Source: a virus. From it: a DNA stretch of 36,251 bases. The DNA is taken from the IMG/VR virus record IMGVR_UViG_3300042987_002718, positions 1 to 36,251 of that record. One strand, written 5' to 3'. Below the pieces are notes generated by a model. It saw only the letters and a program-made list of their open reading frames with translations. It ran no database searches and was not told the origin of the DNA. Positions 4,241 to 29,131 of the stretch are shown in pieces; position 1 is the first letter of the stretch, and each line of letters begins with the position of its first letter. Position numbers and translations under genes: made by a program.

Positions 4241-4479
4241 AGGTTGATACGACTAAAAAAAATGCAGAGAGATTATTCCGTGGCATCTTAGCGGGAAACG
4301 GTGACATATACGGAAGAATGGTTAATGGAATAGGTGTTAAGCCAGCCTACCCAAATGGATTAGAGGATATTATTCCAAAGTTGTACGGGGCATTAGAGGC
4401 TGGACAGGTTGAAGATGGGAGAAAGCTTGCAGATAAGTTTTTGGAGTCTGCCACCTTTCTGGGTGATGTCGATTCATAG
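4237..4479 (+). CDS. small partner of ADP-ribosyltransferase-like protein 1 (putative immunity or adaptor)
   Basis: 80 aa, no known family recognised. It starts inside the stop of the transferase gene (ATGA overlap), with GGAGGA seven bases upstream inside that gene. It is related to the 106-aa protein that follows the second transferase gene: both have GILAGxGDxxxRM near residues 17-30, then a P-x-YP-x-x-L segment and a helical tail. The repeated pairing with an ART-like gene is what one expects for an immunity or chaperone/loading partner. Acidic and soluble, with no membrane segment. Function is inference from context only. Confidence 0.65.
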   Translation: MKVDTTKKNAERLFRGILAGNGDIYGRMVNGIGVKPAYPNGLEDIIPKLYGALEAGQVEDGRKLADKFLESATFLGDVDS

Positions 4480-4493
4480 CCCGTTGTCATGAT

Positions 4494-4509
4494 TGGCTAA
4501 ATTCAAAAT
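4494..4509 (+). promoter_or_regulatory. dispersed 16-bp motif, copy 2 (variant)
   Basis: Reads TGGCTAAATTCAAAAT, 13 of 16 matches to the consensus. It lies in the gap between the first transferase/partner pair and the portal gene, 23 bases before the portal ATG at 4533. Confidence 0.5.
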
Positions 4510-4532
4510 GGGCACAGCAATACTTGACTGCA

Positions 4533-7500: not shown

Positions 7501-7592
7501 TAGAGCGCATCAGCAACGGGGAACCCCAGCGCAAAGTTTATGACGATCTTTATAAAGAGGTGACAGAGTATGCAAAATCAAACATTAAATGA
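4533..7592 (+). CDS. portal protein fused to Cys-rich module and ParB-like domain
   Basis: Residues 1 to about 470 are a lambda-type portal: the dodecameric ring through which DNA enters the head (RLFSRGGADKI start, KSAVNTFVFSVIGKG, SRIARSIAAGIGVSYESLTRDFSNTSYSSAR). A Pro/Glu linker and a helical segment follow to about 600. Then come RYLIYEGLTPL and the C-x5-C-x3-C-x6-C module (about 602-647), also found in the two neighbouring transferase-like proteins. From about 680 there is a ParB/Srx-like domain with VVNGHNRLALAKRAGAERVAV (about 744-765) and NIAEGRGTAEDAAKFF, ending in a long helical region. At 1019 aa it is about twice the usual portal length. An upstream TTG at 4524 is in frame; I chose the ATG. 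It overlaps the next gene by 23 bases. Whether the C-terminal part is processed off is unknown. Confidence 0.85.
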   Translation: MPNFFQRLFSRGGADKIQKRVYSGAKTTGLNILDWRTSGASANSEIFSALRPLRERSRDLCRNDPYAKSAVNTFVFSVIGKGMDLQAKVENRRGGKLNDKLNTQIEVTWRKWADKGNCTPCRRYSLHMLQRQLLRSMIVDGEVLLRIVKKKVGKSPVGLCLEIIEADQLDDRDTDRIAYNGNRIFMGVEVDEWGGPVAYHLLPYHPGDYQFTNRTYQSSTRVPANEIIHLYVSERPGQMRGVPWLHNVIDRIKNISGYEEAEIIRSRVQSCAVGAITSPEPDAMTDTTDADSSDYKFLSPGEILRLAPGEEFTMGNAAAPNPSLESFIRSIARSIAAGIGVSYESLTRDFSNTSYSSARTALLAERDLYEVIQSEFIESFLCPFYIDHWLPAAAMTVPGLGYYSGNEEFHEKHRWTRRGWPWVDPLKDLQASELALNLNLTTLTRELATQGIDIEDLLKERAAEKELLKQYGLGDEEQPTEEGAAAAPEEEENVPIMPGLTPIDGGIAVTEPAPVEPTPVEAAPRELETAITALSRAVEVMAEVVKTRPSDSRIPQELLDSLRELKRERQEDKIEINLNLPEELAQALQTDVAGPEPVEERSYEPIRYLIYEGLTPLGDLALRGATKGKTCKTGQACGNTCIAPSKTCKLKLQGSQKEKAKNAKAKTNRGVTSDSRKPNTKLAGTIGEIDPATIEVDPKRFQYKIIGEHTQSGEVGSLSGVQKYDPQLAGILQVWQDPSDGKTYVVNGHNRLALAKRAGAERVAVRYLDVQNDKEARAVGALTNIAEGRGTAEDAAKFFKDTGLSAEDIRKKGIPMKEKIATDGLALSNLDDVIFKKVIDGDIPTARAVIIGKSNLDKDQQKSLVELIDKQPKSKKITDEVLSELVDTVAASSKTSSFQMDLFGGSTTVQTNAIERAKAQAAIRKKMSTDKNLFGTVSKTKAAQSLAQAGNVIDVLGSKQISQDASVALNVFDKLKNVSGPVSDSINKAVERISNGEPQRKVYDDLYKEVTEYAKSNIK

Positions 7593-8940
7593 TAACGAGA
7601 AAAACTCTGTGCTTGATGAATTGCTGTTCATGGCGGCAACGGGCAACCTCAACTATCAATCTGATGACGACCTGAAGCAAGAAAAGCGAGACTTGGGATT
7701 TAACCTAATTCGCCATGCCGACGGATTTACCTTTCTAACGCCGGTTATCTCGCTGATGTCTAGATCTGTGAAGCAATGCAAAAACGGGCAAGCCTGCGGA
7801 AATGCCTGCATCAGCAAAGCCAAGGTCTGCCGCAAAAACTTGGGGGCCAAGCAAGCGGCAAAAGCTCAAGTAGCCAAAACCAAAACGACCAAGCAGACCA
7901 AATCCAAATCCGCTCCGCAGGCAATCGGGAAAACTGGCTATAGCGCAGACGAGCAAAGTAAATTGGCGACCCCTCACCTACAGAACCTGTATGGCCTCGC
8001 CATGGGCCAATCCGATACCAGAGATCCCGACAAGGTCAAAATCCAAGATGCGAAGCTGATCAATTCCAATGTTGGAACCTATCAATATGAAAAGATCAGA
8101 AGGCTTAAAAAGGCTGGACTAGAGGAAATGGAGGCGCATGGGGTCGCCGCCTGGATTGACCACAGCTACAAGCCGATTAATCAGGAGATCTATGCTCCCA
8201 CTGGGGATAAATACGGAGAAGGGGCTGGGGTAAGGGCCGCCCAAGGTATTCACAAGCTACCGTCCTACAAGCATAGCGAGATGGTCAAGGAAGGTAATAA
8301 AGCCGGATCATCTTTACTGCCAGAGGGAGAGTTGCGGCGAGGTGTCAAGATTCCCGACCTAGATGCTTTTTTGAAGCCCTACGAGGAGGCGGCCGGGAAA
8401 CCAGAATTTAAGGAACCGACCTTTTTTGCTACTACGGCAAGGCAATCTCTAGGATTCACAGATCCCGGCAGGGCCAATGTGCTCTATGTGATCAAGGCAA
8501 AATCTGATGGCACTGGACAAGGCCGAGCTGTTGACAAATATAAAAATCAAGCTTTTGAGGGAGAAGTGTTATATCCGCCCTATAGTCGGTTTAAGATAAA
8601 TAGGGTAGAGCGCCAGTCCCAGGGGTTTCGCTTGCTGACTCCGCCAGGACAAATCCCAGATGCGCCTGAATTTGTTAAAAAAATGACTAGCCAAGAGTTT
8701 TTGGCTTTCATTCCCAAAATCCACGATGCTAGGCAGTCTGTAAATGCAGTAGCATCAGCCATGGTATTTAATGAACCTGGCATCAAAAAAAAGCAATCTG
8801 AGGCAAGAAAAAAAATTGCGGCATTGGGATTTGACGTTAAGGGTAAAAAATGGCAGGAAGTTGCTTATAGCATGGCTTTTGCTTATCCCTATTATCAAAC
8901 CACGCCTGGCCAAGCAAAAATTTATATGGAGGAACTTTAG
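7570..8940 (+). CDS. ADP-ribosyltransferase-like protein 2 with Cys-rich module
   Basis: Paralogue of the protein at 3173-4240. Key residues are conserved: Arg257-Gly258 in LRRGVKI, FFATT at 285-289, and E330-G-E332 in EGEVLYPP followed by SRFKI. The Cys module (CKNGQACGNACI, about 71-89) and the MEAHGVAAWIDHSYKPINQEIY helix are also present. It differs by a new N-terminus, without RYLIYEGLTPL, and by about 100 extra C-terminal residues (QSQGFRLLTPPGQI to the end) before the shared final YMEEL. The start lies inside the portal gene with GAGGTGA upstream, so it is coupled to portal translation. Probably an NAD-dependent effector carried in or made with the virion; target unknown. Confidence 0.75.
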   Translation: MQNQTLNDNEKNSVLDELLFMAATGNLNYQSDDDLKQEKRDLGFNLIRHADGFTFLTPVISLMSRSVKQCKNGQACGNACISKAKVCRKNLGAKQAAKAQVAKTKTTKQTKSKSAPQAIGKTGYSADEQSKLATPHLQNLYGLAMGQSDTRDPDKVKIQDAKLINSNVGTYQYEKIRRLKKAGLEEMEAHGVAAWIDHSYKPINQEIYAPTGDKYGEGAGVRAAQGIHKLPSYKHSEMVKEGNKAGSSLLPEGELRRGVKIPDLDAFLKPYEEAAGKPEFKEPTFFATTARQSLGFTDPGRANVLYVIKAKSDGTGQGRAVDKYKNQAFEGEVLYPPYSRFKINRVERQSQGFRLLTPPGQIPDAPEFVKKMTSQEFLAFIPKIHDARQSVNAVASAMVFNEPGIKKKQSEARKKIAALGFDVKGKKWQEVAYSMAFAYPYYQTTPGQAKIYMEEL

Positions 8941-18114: not shown

Positions 18115-18296
18115 TCCGATTCGGTCATTCCTGGCATGAAATCCAAGACTATACCCTGGCCCAGATTCAGGCTTTTCTAGAGGCCGCTAGCAAGCTGGAG
18201 TTAGAGGAACGGCGTAATGCCCTGCTGGAAAATGCGATCAGTAGCCAGGGGGATCAGAAGGCCATCAAGAAGGCCGTGAAGCAATTGGAGCCTTGA
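17656..18296 (+). CDS. tail assembly chaperone, -1 frameshift (G-T-like) product
   Basis: A second coding frame, one base back from the G-like frame, is open from inside that gene to a TGA at 18294-18296. It encodes TEDWHIRISRLIRFGHSWHEIQDYTLAQIQAFLEAASKLE, a pattern typical of the T part of lambda-like G-T chaperones. A canonical slippery heptamer T-TTT-TTC in the right frame lies at 18024-18030. A second, less regular site (GGAAAAA at 18075-18081) is closer to the stop. The T part has no start codon or ribosome site of its own. Its last 32 bases overlap the convergent oxygenase gene. Confidence 0.7.
18024..18030 (+). other. -1 ribosomal frameshift heptamer
   Basis: TTTTTTC read as T-TTT-TTC in the chaperone frame, fitting the X-XXY-YYZ rule. 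Slipping here leads into an open -1 frame that runs to 18296. The alternative GGAAAAA site further down would also join the frames. Confidence 0.6.
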
Positions 18297-18855
18297 TGAT
18301 CTGCCAGAGTGTTAGGGCGTATTTGATCCCTTGCTTGATTGGCTTGGCTTCGTGGAGTGTTTGGTCGTTGGTGGCAGAGTCGTAATCATATCGAAAGGAG
18401 AGTAGTCTCCCTACCTGTGGCGCTACCCCAAATTTAAGCTTAGGGAAATAGGTCTCACCGCCAGCCTCAACATCGGACAAATAGATCACAAACGTCCTGA
18501 CTCGTTGATGATTTAGAGCGTTCTTGTTGGACTGGGTGATGTAGTGATCGTAATGGGGCTTGTAATATTGCCCCTGTTCGTATCTCAGGAATTGTGGGGT
18601 TTGGAACTGGCCCTTATCTAACCCAAAGGCATCGTAAACCTTCTGAGCTATTTCTACCGCCACAGGGGCCAATTGTGTTGGTTGCCATTGATAGGAGTTT
18701 CTGTAATCACTCCGAATCCTCTGGCTAGTGGTCGGGTCTAAAACAGTCGAGGGGATGAGATTGGGCGCTATCCACTCGATCAAGGACTCGCAAAGCTCTC
18801 TCTCGATAAAGTTATCGATTACGAATACTTCAGGCTTTTCGGAGAGCAGTTCCAT
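18265..18855 (-). CDS. 2-oxoglutarate/Fe(II) oxygenase (prolyl 4-hydroxylase type)
   Basis: 196 aa. The iron ligands are visible as His101-Tyr-Asp103 in KPHYDHY and His168 in QTLHEAKP, with Lys178 ten residues on for 2-oxoglutarate, the P4Hc pattern. The N-terminus (EVFVIDNFIERELCESLIEW) is the usual start of this fold. It would hydroxylate a protein or small-molecule substrate; cyanophages often carry such genes. ATG at 18855 is chosen because the upstream extension enters the promoter of the divergent antirepressor gene and looks non-coding. The 3' end overlaps the chaperone gene by 32 bases, so it was inserted tightly as a moron. Confidence 0.85.
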   Translation of the reverse strand: MELLSEKPEVFVIDNFIERELCESLIEWIAPNLIPSTVLDPTTSQRIRSDYRNSYQWQPTQLAPVAVEIAQKVYDAFGLDKGQFQTPQFLRYEQGQYYKPHYDHYITQSNKNALNHQRVRTFVIYLSDVEAGGETYFPKLKFGVAPQVGRLLSFRYDYDSATNDQTLHEAKPIKQGIKYALTLWQIIKAPIASRPS

Positions 18856-18900: not shown

Positions 18901-18923
18901 TAGCAATATTTCATTGCTACAAT
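18901..18923 (+). promoter_or_regulatory. promoter with palindromic operator, antirepressor-like gene 1
   Basis: TAGCAAT (18901-18907) and ATTGCTA (18913-18919) form a perfect 7-bp inverted repeat with a 5-bp spacer, a likely dimer-binding operator. It overlaps a -10-like TACAAT (18918-18923). The core TTCATTGCTACAAT recurs at 28839 and, with changes, on the minus strand at 30973. No good -35 box is seen. Confidence 0.55.
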
Positions 18924-18937
18924 AGGGAAATTCAAAA

Positions 18938-18987
18938 GCCCTCGCGGGATGACCGTCCCCAGGGCCAGTAACACCTAAACAGCAGGT
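18938..18987 (+). ncRNA. structured 5' leader, copy 1
   Basis: Two predicted hairpins lie between promoter and ATG (18995). The first has an outer stem GCCCT/AGGGC (18938-18942/18961-18965) and an inner stem GGGA/TCCC (18946-18949/18956-18959) with a 6-nt loop. The second is ACCT/AGGT (18973-18976/18984-18987). Copy 2 at 28867 keeps the same geometry while the inner stem differs on both sides, supporting a real RNA structure. It may control translation or attenuation, or bind a protein. Confidence 0.6.
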
Positions 18988-18994
18988 ATCACCC

Positions 18995-19822
18995 ATGACA
19001 AGCATTGTAAAACAAGACATCGCCAACCTGATTGACGGATGGTTAGAGGCAGAATCAAAGGGCGTTCAGTTCCCAGTTCCTTTTGATTTGGCATGGCAAA
19101 TTGCCGGATACAGCCGCAAAGACTCAGCTAAGCGTAAACTCCCCAAATCCAGTCAGGGCAAGGTTTACCACATTTCGGTGGAAAACCCATCTATCGAAGG
19201 GGGTCGCCCTCGGGAAGTGATAACGCTATCCTGTGATGGACTAAAACATCTCTGCTTGATGGCCGAGACAGAGCAGGGTGATCAAATTCGTCAGTATTTC
19301 ATCGAGGCAGAGAAGAATTGGCGATTAGTCCAAGAGCGCTACCCGTCCATTGCCCATGAAATGGAGCTTATGAAGCTTCGCAATGAGGGGCTGATGTTGG
19401 AGGCTCAGAAGGAAATGGCGATAGCCCAAGCCAAGCAAGCGGATCTAGCCCTAACTCAATTTCGCCATACCATCGTCAATACTTGCCCCGAGCCGGTACA
19501 ACAGAAAATTCTGGGATTTAGTGTCGTCGAGAAGGTGGAATACCGGGATCGCATCATCCTTGGTGATGAAGTCGTTAATGATGGCGGTACTGTTACCAAA
19601 ACTTATCTTTGTGACCGCTATGGCTTCAAGACCAAGAGCGGCAAGCCTGACTACAAAGCCCTTAACCTGTTTCTGGCTCAGACTGGCTTAGAATCGCTCT
19701 CTGATGCCTGGCAACTATCCGCCTATGTTCAAGAATCTCAACAACTGAAGCGGGAATACCTGGGCGAACTAGACCGCCGATTTCATCAGGTACAGTCGAG
19801 GCAATTGTTTCTAGGGGAATAG
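18995..19822 (+). CDS. phage antirepressor-like protein (AntA/BRO type)
   Basis: 275 aa. The N-terminal ~110 residues (LAWQIAGYSRKDSAKRKLPKS, VITLSCDGLKHLCLMAETEQGDQIRQYFIEAEKNWR) have the pattern of AntA/BRO/MSV199-type DNA-binding domains. A helical Glu/Gln/Ala-rich linker (about 125-160) follows, then a C-terminal domain (YLCDRYGFKTKSGKPDYKALNLFLAQTGLESL). Likely counters a repressor or acts as a regulator. Its promoter, leader and first 7 codons (MTSIVKQ) are repeated at a second antirepressor-like gene at 28931. The upstream palindrome suggests it is itself repressed. Confidence 0.7.
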   Translation: MTSIVKQDIANLIDGWLEAESKGVQFPVPFDLAWQIAGYSRKDSAKRKLPKSSQGKVYHISVENPSIEGGRPREVITLSCDGLKHLCLMAETEQGDQIRQYFIEAEKNWRLVQERYPSIAHEMELMKLRNEGLMLEAQKEMAIAQAKQADLALTQFRHTIVNTCPEPVQQKILGFSVVEKVEYRDRIILGDEVVNDGGTVTKTYLCDRYGFKTKSGKPDYKALNLFLAQTGLESLSDAWQLSAYVQESQQLKREYLGELDRRFHQVQSRQLFLGE

Positions 19823-19825
19823 GAC

Positions 19826-20125
19826 TTATCCCAACTGGGCAACCAAGACAACGATTAATCCAAAGCAGATACCAATAAAAGCCCAGCCAATGTTAATTAG
19901 CCAATAATTCCAGTCATTTAGCCTTGTTTCAATGTTTGAGAGGCTGGATAGGGATTTCTCCCTTTTGGCTAGTTCAGACTCGATGTTTTTAGTTGAAATA
20001 CTCATTCCGTCTAAAGACGAACTTATTTCTTCTAAAGACGATTTGATGCCTTGTAGCTGGGCAATGGTTTTCTCTATGTGAGACGAAAAAAGGGTTTTTA
20101 TTTCTTCAATCTCTGGATTGCTCAT
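19826..20125 (-). CDS. coiled-coil protein with C-terminal membrane anchor
   Basis: 99 aa, convergent with the antirepressor-like gene. Residues about 1-70 are a coiled coil with heptad-like pattern (ISSSLDGMSISTKNIESELAKREKSLSSLSNIETRL). Residues about 77-96 (IGWAFIGICFGLIVVLVAQL) are a membrane segment. This topology and size match XhlA-like, holin-associated proteins, but also small superinfection proteins. It may be related functionally to the minus-strand coiled-coil protein at 16400. Confidence 0.6.
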   Translation of the reverse strand: MSNPEIEEIKTLFSSHIEKTIAQLQGIKSSLEEISSSLDGMSISTKNIESELAKREKSLSSLSNIETRLNDWNYWLINIGWAFIGICFGLIVVLVAQLG

Positions 20126-20209
20126 TTGAAATCCTTAGTAGTTCATTATGGTTGAATTTAAGACGATTGAATTTAAAGTCTATCTTAGTCCTTGGCAGGA
20201 GAAGTTGCA

Positions 20210-21160
20210 ATGAAAGGGCGGCGATTAACAACAGAAGAATTTATCCAAAGAGCAAGAGAGGTACATGGCGACAAATATGACTATTCGCAGACTGAATACA
20301 TCCACTCTCAAAAAAAGCTAAAAATCATTTGCCCTGAGCATGGCTTATTTGAACAAGATGCAATGAGTCACTTGAGAGGATGTGGATGCCGAAGTTGCGC
20401 CAAAGAAAAGATAATTGAAAAGAATAGTTTAAATACAAAAGAATTTATCCAAAGGGCGAAAGAGATACATGGTGACAAGTATGACTATTCACAGACCAAG
20501 TACACCAAGGCTCTCGAAAAACTAAAAATTATTTGCCCTAAGCATGGTGTGTTTGAGCAACTGGCAACTACCCACCTTAAGGGATCTGGTTGCCATGGTT
20601 GTGGCAGAGAAAAGATAAATGAAAAGAAAACCTCAAATACAAAAGAATTTATCCAAAGGGCAAAAGAGATACATGGTGACAAGTATGACTATTCACAGAC
20701 CAAGTACACTAAGGCTCTCGAAAAACTAAAAATCATTTGCCCTAAACATGGTGTATTTGAACAACAGGCAAGCGGGCACTTGCAGGGAGCTGGTTGCAGA
20801 AGTTGCCAAAAGACTGGCTTCGACCCAACTAAGCCCGGAGTGCTTTACTTGCTCAAGTTTGAGAAACATTTTGTCACGTTCTGGAAAATCGGGATAACTA
20901 ACCGCTCCCCCCGCAGTAGATTTGGGGCTGAGTTTGGTTTTGTCACTACTCAGCATACATGGGAATTTAAGACTGGCATTAATGCACAAGAGATAGAAAA
21001 GCGGGTACTCAAGAAATTTAGCAAGTATAAGTTTGATGACCTATTCTTGTTTTCCATCCTCGATAACGCCGGGGAAACAGAATGTTTTGCCCTTTCCCTG
21101 CCCTACAACAAGGTCATCTCCTTTGTTGAGCAACAAATAAATTCAGTTTGTCCGGGGTGA
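20210..21160 (+). CDS. GIY-YIG nuclease with three treble-clef zinc repeats
   Basis: 316 aa. Three tandem 68-residue units each read F-IQRA-E-HGDKYDYS-T-Y...LKIICP-HG-FEQ...H-G-GC-C, a zinc-binding treble-clef pattern typical of phage endonuclease accessory domains. The C-terminal ~105 residues (GVLYLLKFEKHFVTFWKIGITNRSPRSRF...GETECFALSLP) fit a GIY-YIG nuclease with Arg and Glu catalytic positions. Probably a free-standing homing-type or host-DNA nuclease. ATG at 20210 is chosen over the in-frame TTG at 20192 because AGGAGAAG lies 5 bases upstream. AT-richer than neighbours, consistent with recent arrival. Confidence 0.8.
   Translation: MKGRRLTTEEFIQRAREVHGDKYDYSQTEYIHSQKKLKIICPEHGLFEQDAMSHLRGCGCRSCAKEKIIEKNSLNTKEFIQRAKEIHGDKYDYSQTKYTKALEKLKIICPKHGVFEQLATTHLKGSGCHGCGREKINEKKTSNTKEFIQRAKEIHGDKYDYSQTKYTKALEKLKIICPKHGVFEQQASGHLQGAGCRSCQKTGFDPTKPGVLYLLKFEKHFVTFWKIGITNRSPRSRFGAEFGFVTTQHTWEFKTGINAQEIEKRVLKKFSKYKFDDLFLFSILDNAGETECFALSLPYNKVISFVEQQINSVCPG
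20227..20812 (+). repeat. 204-bp tandem repeats inside the GIY-YIG gene
   Basis: Three units start near 20227, 20431 and 20635. Units 2 and 3 are nearly identical over about 130 bases (most differences are silent), so the last duplication is recent. Unit 1 is more diverged. Confidence 0.85.
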
Positions 21161-21226
21161 GTGCCGGGCCTGTTGCTCGACCCTTCCTGCAATTTTGTAG
21201 AGGTTTGGGTGAACCCGGCTCTTTTA
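21158..21226 (+). terminator. possible terminator after GIY-YIG gene
   Basis: GCCGGG (21163-21168) can pair with CCCGGC (21214-21219), followed by TCTTTTATT. The loop is long (about 45 bases), so this is a weak call. Confidence 0.3.
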
Positions 21227-21254
21227 TTCTGCCTGATTCAAACAGGAAAAGGAA

Positions 21255-21377
21255 ATGAGTTTATTGATTCTATTTTTGTTGGCATCTGTGGCCTGTCCCC
21301 TCTGGTTTTTGGCTTCTGTCGCTGATATTCACCATCGAACCCTAATCGAGCTTGGGGACGAGGATGGCCCTGTCTAA
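21255..21377 (+). CDS. 40-aa single-span membrane protein (lysis accessory candidate)
   Basis: A short gene with a strong AGGAAAAGGA ribosome site (21243-21252). The product begins MSLLILFLLASVACPLWFLA, a single hydrophobic segment, followed by a polar acidic tail (DIHHRTLIELGDEDGPV). A Cys sits at position 14 in SVAC, which resembles but does not fully match a lipobox. It lies immediately upstream of the endolysin, so a small holin, spanin-like or release protein is plausible. Its TAA stop is part of a dispersed 16-bp motif. Confidence 0.5.
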   Translation: MSLLILFLLASVACPLWFLASVADIHHRTLIELGDEDGPV

Positions 21378-21386
21378 ATCCAGAAT
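21371..21386 (+). promoter_or_regulatory. dispersed 16-bp motif, copy 7 (consensus)
   Basis: Exact TGTCTAAATCCAGAAT. Overlaps the stop codon of the 40-aa gene and lies 24 bases before the endolysin ATG, so it could separate lysis gene control from the nuclease block. Confidence 0.65.
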
Positions 21387-21410
21387 GGGGAGGACATCCA
21401 GGGCCTGTTT

Positions 21411-22148
21411 ATGCAACTCCATCACCTGCTGAACATCGACGACCAGCCCCTTGGCCAACTCTCTGAGCCACAAGTCCGGGAACTGCAAACGGCCCTGGCG
21501 CATCTAGGCTATCCCGTGGGACAGATTGATGGACTGATTGGCCCAAGGACTCGGAACGCCTGGGCTGAGTTCAAAGAGGATATTTTTCAGGGGAAACCAG
21601 ACTGGATTGGCAAAGGTTCCGTCCAGGCATTGAAAGGGAAGCTACATAAGGGCGGAGAGCATGACTTCTCCACCAAAGAGGGAACCGTCAGGGCCATTAC
21701 TTTTGAGTGCCGACGGCAAGGAATTGGCCTGCCGACCCAGATGGCTTATGTCCTGGCCACCACGGAATGGGAGACTGCCCATACCTTTAAGCCGGTGCGA
21801 GAGGCCTATTGGAAAACCGAGGCTTGGAGAAAAGCTAATTTCCGCTACTGGCCTTACTACGGGCGCGGCTATGTCCAGCTAACCTGGCGCACCAATTACG
21901 AGAAATACAGTCGCATCTTGGGCATTGATTTGGTGAATAACCCGGATCTGGCAATGGATGGCAACGTGGCCCTGTTTATTCTGGTGCATGGCTTCAAAAC
22001 GGGGGCCTTTACCGGCCGCAAAATCACCGACTACATCAACGATTCAAAGATGGATTACGTCGGGGCCAGACGGTGTATCAACGGCACCGACAAGGCGCGG
22101 GAAATTGCAGAGCTGGCCCGACAGTGGAGAACCCGGTTAAATGGCTAA
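21411..22148 (+). CDS. endolysin: peptidoglycan-binding domain plus GH19 chitinase-like domain
   Basis: 245 aa. Residues about 18-72 (QVRELQTALAHLGYPVGQIDGLIGPRTRNAWAEF) form a PG_binding_1 domain. Residues about 85-240 form a glycoside hydrolase 19 fold with Glu119 in TTEWET as the likely acid, RYWPYYGRGYVQLTWRTNYEKY as the signature and NNPDLAMDGNVAL. GH19 phage lysins cut the peptidoglycan glycan strands at lysis. No signal peptide, so it needs a holin. Overlaps the tail-tip gene by 8 bases. Confidence 0.9.
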   Translation: MQLHHLLNIDDQPLGQLSEPQVRELQTALAHLGYPVGQIDGLIGPRTRNAWAEFKEDIFQGKPDWIGKGSVQALKGKLHKGGEHDFSTKEGTVRAITFECRRQGIGLPTQMAYVLATTEWETAHTFKPVREAYWKTEAWRKANFRYWPYYGRGYVQLTWRTNYEKYSRILGIDLVNNPDLAMDGNVALFILVHGFKTGAFTGRKITDYINDSKMDYVGARRCINGTDKAREIAELARQWRTRLNG

Positions 22149-24573
22149 CTTCCTGATCACAGCGGCGGTAGGACTCGGGGCCAATGCGATTGTCCCTCTG
22201 TTTGGAGGCGGCAAGACCACCTATCAAACTGTTGAGCGGGGCAAAGAGGAAAACTTTCAGAAACCCCTGAGCCGCTATGGTGAATATATCCCGCAGGTTT
22301 GGGGTAAGGTTCGGGTGCCGGGGATTCTCATCTGGGCCAGTTTTCCGCCGAGGGAAGAAGTCAGCGAGGAAGTGAGCCGTACCGCCGGGGGCAAGGGCCA
22401 GCCCAGTACCGTCACCACAACGAGAACCTATAAGTATTTTGGCAACTGTGCCTTTCTGCTGAGCCAGTCCATCACCGAGGATATTCCTAAAATCTGGTTC
22501 AATGGTGAACTGCTATACGAAAACAACAATATTAATCCCCGCATCAGCGGTGTCACTGTCCGCAAATATCAAGGCTATGGCACCATTAACGACAATCCCG
22601 ACCCGCTCCTGGAGAGCTTTGGCAATCAGCAGACCTACCGGAAGCGGTGCTATGTCGTCTTTGAGAATTTGCCACTAGAGGCCTTTGGCAATCGCTATCC
22701 CCAGATCAGCGCTGAGGTTACCAATGGCCAGCCCAATCTCTCCGATATTATTAGCGATATTCTGGAAGACCACGGCTATGAAAGCACCGAATACGATGTT
22801 TCTGAGCTAAATGAGATTGATGTTCCCGGCTTCAAGATTGATCGGGAAATGTCCTGCAAGGAAAAGCTCGGCTTGCTCCAACAGGCTTACTTTTTTGAGA
22901 TGGTGGATACCGGGGACAAGCTCAAATTCATCACTCAATACAGGCCCACTGTCTCATCTGCCATCCCCCTCACCTACCTAGCCAGCCATGAAGATGGCCA
23001 ACAACGGCCCGAAAACTTCCAGGAAACCGTCATCCCAGAAACCCAGCTACCGACCCAGATCGAGGTGGGCTTTGCTGATCGGTTCCGCAACTACCAGGAT
23101 GGATTGCAACGTTCTCCCCTATTCTCGATTGCCCTCTACGAGAACAAGCAGAGGGTAGAACTGCCCATCAGCCTAAGCGAATCGGAAGCCAAGTCTATCG
23201 CCAACAAACAGCTATTGCTGAGTTGGGTTCGCCGCCGCCGCTATAAATTCAGCCTGCCTCCGTCCTATTCCCTCCTGGAGCCGGGGGATGTGGTGGAGGT
23301 GCCGTTCCACAGTGAAGATGGCATCCAGGTTCAGATTTCCCGCATTAACCACGGGGCCAATGATGTTGTTGAAGTGGAGTGCTTTGGCTACCAATCCACT
23401 CTGTATGACTTTCAGTTCACCGTTGGCAATTCCCAACAAGGCGGAGGGACAGCCAATCCAGATACCACTATTTACCTGGGCGTTAACCCGATCCTGAGTT
23501 TTGAAAAGCTCACCAATGCCGATGGTTCCGTCACCTATGAACTAGGAACGGACTACACGGTGAACCTAGCCGCTGGCACGATTACTATCCTGGGATCTGG
23601 TTCCATTCCGCCAGGTAGTGAGGTGGTTTGGTATTTCACCGTGGCCCAGGATGAGCCAGAGCCACCGGACTGGACTCCCTCCGACACCATCCTAAAAATC
23701 CTGGACATCCCCAAAGTTTACGATAGCGATGGCAATGTGCTCTACGTCCTAGCGGATGGTGATAGCAGCTGGCGCAATGCCTCGCTTTACGTCTCTCGCA
23801 ATGGGGGAGTGTCCTATAATTTCGCCGCCAATATTATCACCCGCTCAATTTTTGGCGATGTGCTTAACACTCTAGCCGATGGCACAACACCGGATAGCGT
23901 CAACGATATTGATATTCAGGTTCCCTTTCATGCCGTGCTGGAGACTGTGCTAGAGGCTGACTTGGATGCTGGGGAAAATGTGGCCCTGGTGGGCAATGAG
24001 ATCCTGCAGTTTAGGACAACCAGCCTCACCGGCAACGATGGGACTGACCGGCTCTATACTCTATCCAATTTGAGACGAGGCCTGCGAGGAACCTATGCCG
24101 AAACCGCTACCCATACCGCCTCCGAGGAATTTTTCCTCCTGTCTGGCTATCTGGTTCGCATCCCAATTACCGAAGCGGATATTGGCGAAACGCTCTACTT
24201 TAAGGCGATTACACCGGGCCAAACTCTGGACGACGTTACTCCAGTCACCATTACTGTTACGGGTGAAACTTTCCAGTCAGTATCAACCACAATTCTGGAT
24301 TTCTCGCCCCGCTCTGGAGAGATTGGAACAGCCATAACCATCTATGGCTCCCGATTCACCGGGGCCACCGGTGCCACTGTCAACGGGACAGACTTGGCTA
24401 ATTTAACAATAGTGGATGACTCGACGATCACCGGGGAAATTGACACCGGCACCACTACGGGCAAAGTTTCTGTAATTGGCCCTGCCGGAACGGCAATAAG
24501 CCTGGTTGATTTCGTAATTGGCCCTGGTGCTGATGTCGAATCCGACATTGAACTAATCAGATTTTTACTATAG
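22141..24573 (+). CDS. tail tip / host specificity protein with IPT domain
   Basis: 810 aa. The N-terminus (NFLITAAVGLGANAIVPLFGGGKTTYQ) and the central part (KLGLLQQAYFFEMVDTGDKLKFITQYRPT, RRRYKFSLPPSYSLLEPGDVVEVPF) match J-like / Phage-tail_3 tip proteins that form the central hub. The segment around 440-520 looks like an inserted beta domain. The last ~85 residues (STTILDFSPRSGEIGTAITIYGSRFTGATG...) are an IPT/TIG domain. Coupled to the endolysin gene by an 8-base overlap. It is on the plus strand although the other tip genes (26.1-28.8 kb) are on the minus strand. Confidence 0.8.
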   Translation: MANFLITAAVGLGANAIVPLFGGGKTTYQTVERGKEENFQKPLSRYGEYIPQVWGKVRVPGILIWASFPPREEVSEEVSRTAGGKGQPSTVTTTRTYKYFGNCAFLLSQSITEDIPKIWFNGELLYENNNINPRISGVTVRKYQGYGTINDNPDPLLESFGNQQTYRKRCYVVFENLPLEAFGNRYPQISAEVTNGQPNLSDIISDILEDHGYESTEYDVSELNEIDVPGFKIDREMSCKEKLGLLQQAYFFEMVDTGDKLKFITQYRPTVSSAIPLTYLASHEDGQQRPENFQETVIPETQLPTQIEVGFADRFRNYQDGLQRSPLFSIALYENKQRVELPISLSESEAKSIANKQLLLSWVRRRRYKFSLPPSYSLLEPGDVVEVPFHSEDGIQVQISRINHGANDVVEVECFGYQSTLYDFQFTVGNSQQGGGTANPDTTIYLGVNPILSFEKLTNADGSVTYELGTDYTVNLAAGTITILGSGSIPPGSEVVWYFTVAQDEPEPPDWTPSDTILKILDIPKVYDSDGNVLYVLADGDSSWRNASLYVSRNGGVSYNFAANIITRSIFGDVLNTLADGTTPDSVNDIDIQVPFHAVLETVLEADLDAGENVALVGNEILQFRTTSLTGNDGTDRLYTLSNLRRGLRGTYAETATHTASEEFFLLSGYLVRIPITEADIGETLYFKAITPGQTLDDVTPVTITVTGETFQSVSTTILDFSPRSGEIGTAITIYGSRFTGATGATVNGTDLANLTIVDDSTITGEIDTGTTTGKVSVIGPAGTAISLVDFVIGPGADVESDIELIRFLL

Positions 24574-24581
24574 GAGACAGC

Positions 24582-24896
24582 ATGGCAACGATTACGCCCA
24601 AGTTTCTAGGCGGCATAACGCTAACCAGTACGCCAACAGACGCTTACGTTTGTCCGGCAGATACTACGACACGGGTAGAGCATCTGATTATTTCTAACGG
24701 CTCAACAGCGGGAACCGTGACAGTTGCCTTCCGCCGGTCTAGCACAGATCGAGAGTTGCTAAATGGCTATACAATTACCGCCAATGGCATTCTAGAGTTG
24801 TTCAACGTGATTTTAGAGGCTGGGGACTCTATCAGGGCTTCGGCTACTACTACCACTGGCGCAAAAATCACTTTGTTTGGGACTGAAAGTGTTTAG
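24582..24896 (+). CDS. small tail fibre/tip protein
   Basis: 104 aa, all-beta pattern (TRVEHLIISNGSTAGTVTVAFRRSS, GILELFNVILEAGDSIRA). Such small proteins follow J-like tip genes as trimeric decorations or fibre adaptors. GGAGA precedes the ATG. Overlaps the next gene. Confidence 0.6.
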   Translation: MATITPKFLGGITLTSTPTDAYVCPADTTTRVEHLIISNGSTAGTVTVAFRRSSTDRELLNGYTITANGILELFNVILEAGDSIRASATTTTGAKITLFGTESV

Positions 24897-25389
24897 AACT
24901 GAGACGCTCAGAACGGATCTAGCCTTTGCTACCAATCAGGGGACGACGCAGGCATCTAGCGACTTCCCCGGACTTCAGTCTGGCGTCAGAGCAAACATGG
25001 GGCAGGCTGAACCGGCGGAGTCTAGTCCAGCTATTGTTGCATCCCCAGTTCGCGTCGATTTGGGGCGGATAACTATTCCCTCTGGGCGGAAAACCCAGCG
25101 CATTGCGTCCGTATCAACGGAGCAGGTTCTGACTCTTTCCAGTGAATACTGGCAGTTTTTGACACCCACTGCATCCAGTGTCGTGGTTAAGTTGCCATCG
25201 GTTACAGGTAGCGATTATTTTGAGTGCGAGATAGCTAATGTCAGTGCCGGAACTAATGCTCTGGCTATTCAAGAGTTTAGCGGTACGGCAGTAGTTACTC
25301 TGGTTAATTCTGGAGATAAAAACCGTTCTATTTACGCTTATTGGGACGGCTCAACTTGGCAGGTTTGGGTAAGGGGGTATTATGCCTAA
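24877..25389 (+). CDS. tail fibre-associated beta-rich protein
   Basis: About 170 aa. The middle has RITIPSGRKTQRIASVSTEQVLTLSSEYWQFL and the end YAYWDGSTWQVWVRGYY, a typical C-terminal motif of small fibre proteins. The frame starts at a TTG (24877) within the previous gene; an in-frame GTG at 24889 is an alternative and no good ribosome site is seen for either. Overlaps the lectin-like gene by 8 bases. Confidence 0.55.
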   Translation: MGLKVFRTETLRTDLAFATNQGTTQASSDFPGLQSGVRANMGQAEPAESSPAIVASPVRVDLGRITIPSGRKTQRIASVSTEQVLTLSSEYWQFLTPTASSVVVKLPSVTGSDYFECEIANVSAGTNALAIQEFSGTAVVTLVNSGDKNRSIYAYWDGSTWQVWVRGYYA

Positions 25390-26101
25390 CATTTTGTATA
25401 GGGGAAAGGTGGGCGCGGGAGAAAGCGATCCCCTGTGGAGTAACGTTGTTTTGTCATGCTCATTTGAGGGGGCTAACAACTCAACCACATTTACTGATCT
25501 GACAGGGAAAAATACATTAACAACCGTTGGAAATGCCAGAATTACCACTAGCGACAAAAAGAACGGGAATAGTTGCTTAAACCTTCCTGATAATACCAGC
25601 CGCATAACCATACCTCATTCCGCGGATTGGACTTTTTCAAGCAATGAGATTTCTGTTGATTTTTTTATGAAAAAAAGTGGAAATCCCTCGGTGAATTTTG
25701 CTGGAATTTTAGATAAAATAACCTCGCTAGTGGGAGGCTTTGCTTTTGATCTTGGATCTTCGACGTCAAGCAATCTTGGCCGTGTTAGATTTTTTTCTGC
25801 AACGACTGGTGGGCAATTTCCCACCGTCACATCATCAATGAATGTTTGCGATAATCAGTGGCATTGGATTGTTGGTGAGGTTAGTGGCGGATGGTTGTTT
25901 TTATTCGTTGACGGTGTGCCACAGGGGGCGGTAAATATGGGTTCGGCGGTCTTGAATAATACAGGAAGCGGCTTATTTATAGGTGGCGATGGTGCCTCAA
26001 CTAACTTTATGGATGGCATCTTGATTGACTCCCTGCGAATAACAAATCGGAGAAGATACATTAGTCTAACCACCCCAGCATCAGAGTTCCCAGCAAGTTA
26101 A
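25382..26101 (+). CDS. LamG/concanavalin-like receptor-binding protein
   Basis: 239 aa. Residues about 22-235 fit a laminin-G/ConA jelly roll: VVLSCSFEGANNSTTFTDLTGKN at the start, SRITIPHSADWTFSSNEISVDFFMK, WHWIVGEVSGGWLFLFVDGVPQG and FMDGILIDSLRITN...Y at the end. Such lectin domains bind host surface glycans. AT-richer than the tip gene, as expected for an exchanged receptor-binding module. Stops convergently with the minus-strand tail gene, with a 4-base overlap. Confidence 0.7.
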   Translation: MPNILYRGKVGAGESDPLWSNVVLSCSFEGANNSTTFTDLTGKNTLTTVGNARITTSDKKNGNSCLNLPDNTSRITIPHSADWTFSSNEISVDFFMKKSGNPSVNFAGILDKITSLVGGFAFDLGSSTSSNLGRVRFFSATTGGQFPTVTSSMNVCDNQWHWIVGEVSGGWLFLFVDGVPQGAVNMGSAVLNNTGSGLFIGGDGASTNFMDGILIDSLRITNRRRYISLTTPASEFPAS

Positions 26102-27516
26102 GGGCAAGCTATATCAATGTCGATCACAATGTTTCTAATATCAATAACAACCTCTCTTGGTGTATAGACATTTATGGAATTGCTGTTATACCGGCTAACG
26201 GCAAAGGTTATTAATCCGCCATTGTTGAAGTTGATCAATGCCGAGTTGGTAAATGTTGCCCAGTCTGTGTTACCTCCCCCAGTTAGCACAATAGATTGAG
26301 TGTTCGATCCCTGCTCGACAATCAAAGCAAAAGGATAAACGTCGCTAGTGTTGCTGGACACTTTTTTGATTTCGGCGGAAAAAGTTATTGTTATGATTTC
26401 GTCAGTTGTTAGTGGCTGATAACTTAGCCCGTTTGACCAGGTGATAGAAGCCGCTATTCCGACACTAGGGACACCATAGTTTAGTGTTGTGCGCCAGAAT
26501 CCATTGCTGGTGTCAAGATTATACGTTGCGCCAGTAAATATTCCGTCCGTTCTTGCCTCGATAACCGTCCATGAAGACGATAAGGGATCGGACAAGACAA
26601 GGTTTCTTGGCGTACAGTCCGGCGGCGGTGGGGGCGGTGGCGGCTCAGTGGCCAATTCCGTTGCAATAACCTCTAGCCCAGAAAGTTGCCAGATCGCCTC
26701 TTCGTCACTGGAACGATAGGCATCAAAACGAAAGGAGATCTCATCCTGGGCAAAACGGACGACTACATTCTGCTCTGTCTGCCAGTCCTTAAATGTCCAG
26801 GGGACAGCGGCCCCACGGCATACCCTAAACCAGGCAATCAGCTCTGCCAATTCGGTGCTGTTCAGGGTTCTATCGCCAATATTCCAGCGGCCTTTTGGGG
26901 TTTCCCAGTTGGCGCGGCGATTCTCCCAGCCGGCGTTATTGCCAGCGGTGGAGGTGCTAAAAACTGGCCCTCCCGTCGTCTCGTAGTCATAGCCCAGATC
27001 CAATAGCCCGAGGGTTCCCGGTAGAGGGTCAAGGGCCAGTGGGGTTTCCGGGGCCTGGCGGATTTCTACCAGGGAGAGGTTTTCTAGAGTGAAGATTTTG
27101 GCCCCATCACCGGGACGATACGCCTTGAATCGAAAATCAATTTTGTCCTGCTCAAAGCGCACCGGGACGGTAAAGGTTTCTCCTCCAGTATCGGGGTGGA
27201 GAATAGGCCTGGTGACAGTTTCCCCGTCGGCGGTATAGGTTTTGCTGGCTCCTCCGCCATAGCGATAGTCGGCCCAGTCTTTGAATAGGAATCCCTGATA
27301 GGAGCCTTGCCGAGCATTGAAAAACGCCAGCAGAGTGTCGAGCGTATCACCATCAACGTCCCGCTGGCCAATCTGATACCGGGCCAGTGGCTGATTCCAG
27401 CGGATAATTCGCTGTTCTGAACCATCCCCCAGCACAACAATGGTGGTATTAAAGCGGTAGGTGACGATGGTGCCGTAGGTGATGCCCAGGTCTAGGATGG
27501 TCGGCGTAAAGCTCAT
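26098..27516 (-). CDS. DUF2460-like tail tip protein with duplicated domain and variable C-terminus
   Basis: 472 aa. An N-terminal DUF2460-like unit (about 1-105; ITYGTIVTYRFNTTIVVLGDGSEQRIIRW...FLFKDWADYRYGG) is followed by a second, related unit (about 165-250; LDLGYDYETTGGPVFSTS...NRRANWETPKGRW...WTFKDWQTEQNV). After a run of eight Pro (about 295-302) comes a beta-rich, AT-richer C-terminal domain (~170 aa) that looks like a carbohydrate-binding module. DUF2460 proteins are distal tail parts, as in gene transfer agent tails. Overlaps the NlpC/P60 gene start by 4 bases. Confidence 0.75.
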   Translation of the reverse strand: MSFTPTILDLGITYGTIVTYRFNTTIVVLGDGSEQRIIRWNQPLARYQIGQRDVDGDTLDTLLAFFNARQGSYQGFLFKDWADYRYGGGASKTYTADGETVTRPILHPDTGGETFTVPVRFEQDKIDFRFKAYRPGDGAKIFTLENLSLVEIRQAPETPLALDPLPGTLGLLDLGYDYETTGGPVFSTSTAGNNAGWENRRANWETPKGRWNIGDRTLNSTELAELIAWFRVCRGAAVPWTFKDWQTEQNVVVRFAQDEISFRFDAYRSSDEEAIWQLSGLEVIATELATEPPPPPPPPDCTPRNLVLSDPLSSSWTVIEARTDGIFTGATYNLDTSNGFWRTTLNYGVPSVGIAASITWSNGLSYQPLTTDEIITITFSAEIKKVSSNTSDVYPFALIVEQGSNTQSIVLTGGGNTDWATFTNSALINFNNGGLITFAVSRYNSNSINVYTPREVVIDIRNIVIDIDIACP

Positions 27517-27935
27517 GGGATTTGGGGAAATTTGAAATAAGTCAGAGCCAGATTGCTCCAGGTCGGGTCAAGTCCATGCTCTGTGACTTTAGCGACGGTC
27601 TGATAGGCATGGATAAGAGTGGCTTGGTAGGAGCGATTACCGATAATGCCGCAGTGGATTTGGTGGCGGATGCGGAAAATGGCAATATCACCGGGCATCG
27701 GGGCCTTAGTTTCGGTGCAAGTTTCCTGAAAGTGTTGCAGGAATGCTTTGAGGGGAGGAGTGCGGGAGTAGCCGTCAATATCAAAGGTGCTCAGCTCTAA
27801 ATCCCTAGCGACACAGATAATTAATCCACAGCAATCCACTCCGGCCCCCTTGGCGCGGCCCTGGTGAACATAGGGAGTGCCGATATATTCCCGCGCTTTG
27901 AGCAGAACATCTAGCCGTGTCTTAACTGTTTTCAT
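27513..27935 (-). CDS. NlpC/P60 cell-wall peptidase, tail-associated
   Basis: 140 aa. Catalytic Cys35 in VDCCGLI, a His in HQIHCGIIG and another in LIHAYQ follow the NlpC/P60 triad, which cuts peptidoglycan stem peptides during DNA entry. The ATG at 27935 (MKTVKTRLDVLLKAREYIGTPYVHQGR) is chosen; the longer open frame upstream lies inside the DUF2163 gene. Sits between DUF2163 and DUF2460 genes, as in gene-transfer-agent-like tail clusters. Confidence 0.85.
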   Translation of the reverse strand: MKTVKTRLDVLLKAREYIGTPYVHQGRAKGAGVDCCGLIICVARDLELSTFDIDGYSRTPPLKAFLQHFQETCTETKAPMPGDIAIFRIRHQIHCGIIGNRSYQATLIHAYQTVAKVTEHGLDPTWSNLALTYFKFPQIP

Positions 27936-28785
27936 AGCCAGAGGAGAAATATTGATCTGTGCCGGGAATATCTTTCTCGCCGCCAAAGTTCGCTGTATTG
28001 TTGAACTGGCCACAGTCTCGCCATGTCTTCTGGCAACCAGGGATGGCATTGAATTGGTCGCCAGCCTGGATGGGATTGGGGGGAGTATAGGCCAGCCAGA
28101 TATTTTGTCCATTGCTCTGGGTGATCATGGACTCCAGCCCCGCATTGTCCCCGGTTGTCCAGGTGAGCAGGCCCCCAGCCAGGAAATTATCCTCAAAACT
28201 CAGGTTAGAGGTGAAGAAATACGGCTCGGCCCCTGGTGCATTTACCGACATCCCATAGGTGAAAGCGGCGACGTTGGCATTACAGTTGCTATCCCCAAAT
28301 TTGTAGCGACAGGTGGAGCTGGTCAGGGCGGAAGTTTTTGTTTCAAGGAGTTTTTGGAGGCTTTCGACTTCAACAGTGAAGGTTTGGTCGCTGAGTCGGA
28401 CTTGGCCGAGGAATCCCCGGAGACGGGTAAGGTATTGTGCAGGGCTAGCAGAGAGACTGCTAGGTAGATTGAAGCAATCAACGCGAAAGACGTGGATTCG
28501 AGCATAGTCGTAGACTCCGCTAGATAAATCGGCTTCTGAGATAGCGTCGGCACTGAGGAAGCTGGCTATCTCGATATTGCTGGGGGTGGCATCCAAGCCA
28601 GAATCCACGTTACTGGCGGTGAATCCAGTCGCGGCCTGGTAGGTAACGCCATCAATGATTAAATCCTGGTCAAAATCCGTAAAGCCCAATTGAACTTCAT
28701 CTCTGCGGGTGATCAGCCAACAGGTGGCCAGCATGGACACCCCATCACTCAAAGCGGTTTGCAGAGAAGCGGCAACAGATTTCAT
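27922..28785 (-). CDS. DUF2163 / BR0599-type tail tip protein
   Basis: 287 aa. Residues 1 to about 165 (LATCWLITRRDEVQLGFTDFDQDLIIDGVTYQAATGFTASNV...) match DUF2163. The C-terminal part has CRYKFGDSNCN and GCQKTWRDCGQFNNTANFGGEKDIPGTDQYF, the BR0599-type Cys-rich end known from GTA gp13-like hub proteins. First gene of the minus-strand tip operon. A consensus 16-bp motif ends only 6 bases before its ATG, leaving no room for a Shine-Dalgarno. Confidence 0.85.
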   Translation of the reverse strand: MKSVAASLQTALSDGVSMLATCWLITRRDEVQLGFTDFDQDLIIDGVTYQAATGFTASNVDSGLDATPSNIEIASFLSADAISEADLSSGVYDYARIHVFRVDCFNLPSSLSASPAQYLTRLRGFLGQVRLSDQTFTVEVESLQKLLETKTSALTSSTCRYKFGDSNCNANVAAFTYGMSVNAPGAEPYFFTSNLSFEDNFLAGGLLTWTTGDNAGLESMITQSNGQNIWLAYTPPNPIQAGDQFNAIPGCQKTWRDCGQFNNTANFGGEKDIPGTDQYFSSGYENS

Positions 28786-28791
28786 GGCACC

Positions 28792-28807
28792 ATTCTGGAT
28801 TTAGACA
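28792..28807 (-). promoter_or_regulatory. dispersed 16-bp motif, copy 8 (consensus, minus strand)
   Basis: Exact TGTCTAAATCCAGAAT on the minus strand, in sense orientation to the minus-strand tail-tip operon and 6 bases from its ATG. This reversed copy shows that orientation follows the gene, not the genome. Confidence 0.65.
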
Positions 28808-28838
28808 AATGCCAATGATTTGGCGGTAGCGCTAATGA

Positions 28839-28852
28839 TTCATTGCTACAAT
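28839..28852 (+). promoter_or_regulatory. promoter of antirepressor-like remnant
   Basis: TTCATTGCTACAAT, identical to the copy at 18910-18923, with TACAAT as -10-like box. An imperfect inverted arm (TAGCGCTAATG) lies upstream instead of the perfect TAGCAAT arm of copy 1. Confidence 0.5.
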
Positions 28853-28866
28853 GGGGCAAGATTAAG

Positions 28867-28925
28867 GCCCTCGCGGTGCGCTAACACCCAGGGCGATGTA
28901 AACCTTTCGTTTAAGCTGGTAGGTT
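28867..28925 (+). ncRNA. structured 5' leader, copy 2
   Basis: First hairpin: outer GCCCT/AGGGC (28867-28871/28890-28894) and inner GGTG/CACC (28875-28878/28885-28888) with a 6-nt loop. Second: AACCT/AGGTT (28901-28905/28921-28925). Same architecture as the leader at 18938 while inner stem, loops and spacer differ. The start codon follows at 28931. Confidence 0.6.
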
Positions 28926-28930
28926 CACCT

Positions 28931-29131
28931 ATGACAAGCATTGTAAAACAATCCGATCAGTCTCCGTTTGATGCCATCCGTCATTTTGATGGGAATGGTA
29001 ACGAGTTTTGGTCGGCCCGTGAGTTGATGTCCGTTTTCTTGCCTGGGTTGGCAAAGAAACCAAAAAGAGTATTTCGGGGAAATAACCATGGATTTCAGAG
29101 AATCCCTAAGCCTTGTCCTAGAAGAGATTGA
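28931..29131 (+). pseudogene. truncated antirepressor/DinD-like N-terminus
   Basis: 66 aa. Shares MTSIVKQ and its leader with the gene at 18995. SPFDAIRHFDGNGNEFWSARELMSV is the opening of BRO-N/DinD-type antirepressors, which normally continue for more than 100 residues. Here it ends after an unrelated basic tail (FQRIPKPCPRRD) read out of frame through the start of the next gene. It may be a remnant cut by arrival of the downstream gene, or a short peptide kept for coupling or leader control. Confidence 0.5.

Follow-up and report, generated by a model that had tools for sequence, protein, structure and literature searches.

Two similar stem-loops precede two genes in a viral genome record of 36,251 bases (the whole record, hereafter the window, with genes for a terminase and a major head protein), raising the question of what kind of element they form and on which strand it works. 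A sequence-only reading had described them as a two-hairpin RNA leader with covarying inner stems and an identical 21-nt start region, controlling two antirepressor-like genes. Both leaders were located in the window (Table 1), with hairpin 1 (HP1) reading GCCCT-CGC-GGGA-TGACCG-TCCC-C-AGGGC in copy 1 and GCCCT-CGC-GGTG-CGCTAA-CACC-C-AGGGC in copy 2, and the 21 nt ATGACAAGCATTGTAAAACAA recur identically at 18995 and 28931. In both copies the outer stem is GCCCT/AGGGC (5 bp), the internal loop is CGC/C and the inner hairpin spans 14 nt; about 0.1 such hairpins would be expected in the window by chance. A covariance model trained on copy 1 and three relatives, with copy 2 left out, recovered copy 2 at E=4.6e-14.

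Table 1. Features of the two leader copies in the window.
Feature	Position	Strand	Remark
Sense -10 box TACAAT, copy 1	18918..18923 (approximate)	+	14 nt before the stem; read from sequence and family spacing
T-rich tail TTTTGAATTTCC past HP1, copy 1	18926..18937	-	possible 3' end of the antisense RNA
HP1, copy 1	18938..18965	either	outer stem of 5 bp and inner stem of 4-6 bp, joined by the CGC/C internal loop
Hairpin 2 (HP2) of the putative antisense RNA, copy 1	18967..18993	-	11 bp; over the Shine-Dalgarno region; model R3 match 18937-18992
Antirepressor-like gene, copy 1	18995..19822	+	275 aa
Antisense -10 box TACAAT, copy 1	19004..19009	-	codons 4-5; antisense start predicted near 18996
Sense -10 box TACAAT, copy 2	28847..28852 (approximate)	+	14 nt before the stem; read from sequence and family spacing
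Moderately T-rich tail CTTAATCTTGCC past HP1, copy 2	28855..28866	-	base composition
HP1, copy 2	28867..28894	either	inner stem GGTG/CACC
HP2 of the putative antisense RNA, copy 2	28898..28928	-	8 bp; model R3 matched only HP1 here
BRO-like gene remnant, copy 2	28931..29131	+	66 codons; intact relative in contig L121
Antisense -10 box TACAAT, copy 2	28940..28945	-	motif

The covariance-model search that had been proposed did find homologues in phages, and the family comprises at least 102 distinct hairpin copies from T4-like aquatic phages, from phages of Rhizobium, Agrobacterium and Sinorhizobium, and from cyanobacterial phages. This size is a lower bound, as a scan fixing only the late promoter and the 5' half of the hairpin (ATAAATAA N2-4 GTNNNTCGCGG) returned at least 120 stretches. 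Cultured carriers are Planktothrix phage PaV-LD (three copies), Sinorhizobium phage phiM9 and Agrobacterium phage Atu_ph04 (two copies each), and Rhizobium phages RHph_I46 and RHph_N34. Four viral contigs carry relatives of the antirepressor-like protein of the window, and Xenococcus also has a homologue; the leader is present in the viral relatives whose upstream DNA was examined (L002, L004 and L005), and the sequence upstream of the Xenococcus homologue (L001) is an unrelated leader. Model searches found no element in T4, Aeh1, Aeromonas phage 25, S-PM2, P-SSM2, Ma-LMM01, phiM12, P10VF or CL131. The element is not specific to cyanobacteria. No true match with models R1 or R2 or with patterns was obtained in 386 cyanobacterial genomes, where the few candidates scored per genome limit sensitivity and make this weak evidence of absence from chromosomes. 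Nothing in the window reached a gathering threshold of Rfam 15 (best sub-threshold E=5.7), searches of 13 member loci against Rfam returned unrelated matches only, and no paper with the sequence or such a leader was found in a literature search that covered few subscription journals. The two leaders of the window are members of a large and apparently undescribed two-hairpin RNA family spread over many phages.

Several matches were rejected as chance. One of them (L012) falls midway along a 571-aa RND-transporter-like ORF, in antisense orientation to it; L013, L051, L052, L060, L066, L067, L073-L075 and a set of GC-rich matches are without the outer stem; the Bacillus SPbeta matches (L045/L046) have the inner hairpin only and were also discarded. 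A hairpin on a GC-rich viral contig (L015, 1239-1276) has the full family geometry, with 24 nt to the ATG and TCTG past the stem, in front of a tyrosine-recombinase-like gene, and is probably a real distant member. Another contig (L008) bears tandem HP1 hairpins about 85 nt apart (7074-7111 and 6988-7025, minus strand), the upstream one lacking a gene of its own and having a hairpin identical to copy 1 of the window. Known RNAs were also seen in member contigs, namely a freshwater-2 RNA (Rfam RF02980; L019, 3657-3731, minus strand) and a group I intron (RF00028; L021, 5481-5688, minus strand).

The pairing of HP1 is kept across these genomes. When the outer stem was left free in a scan of viral contigs for the inner hairpin pattern, the result was bimodal, with at least four further Watson-Crick outer pairs in 27 of 33 distinct contexts and none or one in the other six. 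Conversely, among the matches listed, contexts picked by the late promoter and the 5' half alone had a perfect 6-bp 3' partner in 79 of 80 distinct cases, and all 79 partnered contexts kept the unpaired C; the CGC/C loop and its flanking pairs are almost invariant. In an alignment of 22 members 97.0% of cells were paired (covariation score 0.727 vs 0.178 shuffled), and in one of 50 sequences 99.2% were paired against 72% after shuffling (0.685 vs 0.147), with both sides changed in 124 cells vs 28 (0/500 shuffles); the members are related, so that the p-values given here and below overstate significance. Loss of pairing in homologous leaders, which would have spoken against a selected element, was therefore not observed, and HP1 is, as judged from these alignments, under selection for pairing. 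The claim of a selected, structured and covarying element in the leader region is thereby upheld in many genomes, outside Rfam. Pair types in the 102 distinct hairpins are almost exclusively Watson-Crick (outer stem 606 Watson-Crick, 3 G.U and 0 A.C; inner stem 383, 8 and 8), and HP1 is therefore equally constrained on both strands; a requirement that HP1 fold on both strands would account for the scarcity of G.U. Moreover, L002 and L004 match almost completely near the site (around 2940-2970) but differ in HP1 type (GGTGCGCTAACACC vs GGGACGGCTATCCC) with pairing kept, which suggests that hairpin types get exchanged and, more speculatively, that they may matter for specificity.

HP1 pairs equally well on either strand. 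A strand preference is found in the spacer between HP1 and the ATG, which folds better antisense in 106 of 108 cases (80/82 late-type members, 17/17 sigma70-type and 9/9 others). Minimum free energies were -7.8 kcal/mol antisense vs -3.5 sense in late-type and -10.0 vs -4.4 in sigma70-type spacers, with a median shuffle p of 0.017 antisense vs 0.28-0.6 sense. In 52 late spacers we counted 69 sense A.C against 8 sense G.U; A.C mismatches of the sense HP2 are G.U pairs on the other strand, and HP2 thus belongs to the antisense strand. Alignment of the antisense two-hairpin structure in 23 late-type members (A9, in-register members only) gave 99.7% pairing, with 11 of 17 pairs doubly changed, whereas the same HP2 helix read in the sense direction was 79.5% paired and included one pair that was never formed (0/16) and is an antisense G.U in 23/23. 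The second hairpin proposed earlier for the sense strand (ACCT/AGGT, AACCT/AGGTT) was dropped as a family feature, its best helix of 3.5 bp being no better than the 3.0 bp of shuffled sequence, while a strong hairpin of 8-11 bp does exist antisense. Given the antisense-biased folding and the one-sided G.U, we take the sense hairpin 2 to be the shadow of the antisense hairpin.

Model R3, trained only on late-type antisense RNAs, finds most of the sigma70-type ones, always opposite the gene, although part of its score comes from the strand-symmetric HP1; its match at copy 1 lies on the minus strand with E 2.3e-5. Two members, L072 and L076, have no good HP2. Covariation and folding together argue that there is a structured RNA on the antisense strand, predicted to cover the Shine-Dalgarno sequence and the start, so that the strand assumed earlier was half right: HP1 pairs on both, and the two-hairpin RNA lies opposite to the gene. 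An antisense RNA describes the element better than a classical mRNA leader does.

Promoter cores were found on both strands. On the sense side, the stem usually starts 3-7 nt past TAAATA in late-type members and 11-14 nt past TATAAT/TACAAT in most sigma70-type ones, and ends a median of 27 nt before the ATG (mostly 25-27 nt in late-type). The antisense late-promoter core TATTTA occurs just past the ATG in 77 of the 84 late-type members among the matches listed, vs 16 of 640 other ORFs (2.5%). Its offset differs between reading frames, the Ile codon there is ATT in 72 of 75 cases vs a background of 47%, and the preceding base is always T, which indicates that the constraint acts on nucleotides. 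Likewise, antisense TANNNT is present at offset 5-10 in 15 of 17 distinct sigma70-type starts vs 9 of 138 other ORFs (6.5%), and the class of the antisense core (late or sigma70) is that of the sense promoter. The antisense -10 is absent in L110 and L119, rhizobial members have only a partial TATTT, and no TTGACA-type -35 was found on either strand at the two window copies. An antisense tail with at least 5 T of 8 past HP1 was observed in 83 of 84 late-type members, and a T-rich sense tail in only 2 of 84, both among the matches listed; the corresponding sigma70-type counts are 12/16 and 0/16. In late-type members the tail coincides with the complementary strand of the sense late promoter, and so it may not be a terminator signal.

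The genes behind the module proved to be diverse. Late-type members sit before GIY-YIG or HNH proteins, and of 63 late-type proteins among the matches listed, 36 match PHROG 314 and 19 PHROG 655 (both homing endonuclease), with the Pfam domain NUMOD3 in 23. In RHph_I46 and RHph_N34 the element lies in front of an annotated homing endonuclease, and the genome site differs between the two phages. Sigma70-type members are followed by antirepressor-like, BRO-like, KilA-N, BstA-like, HNH or uncharacterised genes, the downstream gene in cyanobacterial phages being an antirepressor, KilA-N or similar. Within the window, the gene of copy 1 is indeed antirepressor-like and matches PHROG Ant, but that of copy 2 is the truncated remnant of a BRO-like gene, whose intact counterpart follows a leader of this kind in L121. 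Control of regulators as the common function did not hold up, since the element is not regulator-specific and homing endonucleases of T4-like phages make up most of the downstream genes found. In another contig (L024, 3930-4292) the gene behind the leader resembles part of the abortive-infection protein BstA (PHROG 6287), and by eye the proteins of L018 and L119 seem to join a common N-terminal domain to a C-terminus of PD-(D/E)XK-like type. Elsewhere in the window, a 2OG-Fe(II) oxygenase gene (18265-18855, minus strand) adjoins copy 1 upstream in divergent orientation, an endonuclease-like gene with repeats of the motif GDKYDYSQTxY (20192-21160, PHROG 681) is without an HP1/HP2 leader, and a cysteine motif of the CKxGQACGNxC type recurs in three ORFs of the head region (3173-8940), followed by related C-terminal parts, as a repeated protein module.

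The hairpins and their covariation, the strand preference, the promoter cores on both strands, the spacing, the T-rich tail and the gene association are read from the sequences themselves, and the account of them that we favour, with some reservation, is that at each site a mobile phage gene bears a portable sense/antisense module at its 5' end, with the antisense RNA as a self-carried brake. A sense promoter, sigma70-type in the window and T4-like late in myoviruses, would place the mRNA start at the base of HP1 or slightly ahead of it, and a convergent promoter of the same class, in about codons 2-6, would start the antisense RNA near the start codon. This RNA of some 65-70 nt would consist of HP2, with a loop that in most cases contains CUCCU, complementary to the Shine-Dalgarno sequence, followed by a short linker, HP1 and a U-rich tail, and would cover the Shine-Dalgarno sequence and AUG of the selfish gene. 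Being fully complementary to the 5' UTR, it should block translation. We infer activity of both promoters, an end of the antisense RNA past HP1 and repression of the gene by this RNA.

HP1 could also act within the mRNA or as DNA. In the first case, HP1 at the mRNA 5' end would act in cis on stability or translation, or bind a phage or host protein, and the antisense RNA would be irrelevant; its position just past the promoter cores, the tightly kept distance to the AUG in late-type members and the near-invariant CGC/C with its flanking pairs all fit such a leader, which we nevertheless consider unlikely, because HP2 folds antisense, antisense promoter cores are strongly enriched and HP1 avoids G.U almost wholly, which is unusual for selection on a single RNA strand. 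Still less probable is a DNA element, in which the hairpin and convergent promoter cores would mark a cassette border or a single-strand DNA site in gene shuffling, pairing being kept by templated quasi-palindrome repair. This would suit stems that are Watson-Crick only, a leader common to unrelated genes and at different sites in RHph_I46 and RHph_N34, and the swapped hairpin type within the nearly identical L002/L004; the G.U of HP2 on one strand only is, however, RNA behaviour, and the spacing to the start codon is fixed. We give very little credence to the notion that the antisense-strand RNA has targets besides its own gene, either silencing a competing phage's copy of that gene in trans or serving the nuclease as an RNA partner. 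That single phages hold several copies with different hairpin types and that types are swapped between close relatives are in its favour, but the downstream proteins share no common domain, which argues against a common RNA-guided enzyme. Finally, an I-TevI-like switch, known for T4 endonucleases (PMC2988022), in which base-pairing between promoter sequence and start region conceals the ribosome-binding site in read-through RNA while RNA from the own promoter lacks the promoter arm, was rejected as highly improbable despite the complementarity of promoter core and start motif (ATAAATA/TATTTAT; TACAAT/ATTGTA), as Shine-Dalgarno-AUG accessibility in folded late-type read-through RNA equals that with a shuffled arm (0.482 vs 0.482), leaving no extra occlusion, and the antisense -10 of several sigma70-type members mismatches their own promoter.

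The proposed self-carried antisense brake has precedents. In SymE/SymR and type I toxin-antitoxin systems, a gene that is nuclease-like or harmful has a small RNA encoded against its 5' end, over the Shine-Dalgarno sequence and start codon; the phage module would share this layout, but unlike SymR it is a recurrent two-hairpin RNA on many unrelated phage genes. In IS10 RNA-IN/RNA-OUT, an opposing promoter in the start region of a mobile gene drives a short, structured RNA that is antisense to the ribosome-binding site, and the phage module would likewise combine a mobile gene, an opposing promoter at its start and a structured antisense RNA. RNA-OUT, however, is one hairpin in a transposon, whereas the module has two hairpins, phage genes and mostly T4-like late promoter cores on both strands. 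PeSL cassettes of RB49-type phages are reportedly small mobile regulatory cassettes, early promoters with terminators between genes. The module resembles them as a small mobile promoter and stem-loop cassette, but its hairpin lies past the promoter inside the 5' UTR and a second promoter core is on the other strand; we did not assign it to PeSL, as the rarity of T-rich sense tails leaves no sense intrinsic-terminator signature. T4-family endonuclease genes (I-TevI, segB, mobE, seg43(25)) have leader hairpins together with late promoters (PMC2988022; PMC3014915), and the module is similar in having RNA structure and a late promoter at the 5' end of homing endonuclease genes. Except in seg43(25), the T4-family hairpins hide the Shine-Dalgarno sequence in upstream transcripts (PMC2988022), whereas HP1 leaves it free; models R2 and R3 found nothing in T4, Aeh1 and Aeromonas phage 25.

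Few selfish genes are as common in phages as those of homing endonucleases. If the favoured reading is true, a portable antisense RNA carried with the gene, able to work with promoters of host type or of T4-late type, would explain in general terms how they keep from harming the host phage once they have moved to a new place. A bolder and rather doubtful extension is that this antisense-RNA family travels with phage homing endonucleases and antirepressors, that the hairpin types are specificity groups, and that a resident copy would silence selfish genes of its own kind on a competing phage, as trans immunity between mobile genes. The antisense RNA would also add a new family to the RNAs of cyanobacterial and rhizobial phages, directly testable in the cultured phages PaV-LD, phiM9, Atu_ph04 and RHph_I46.
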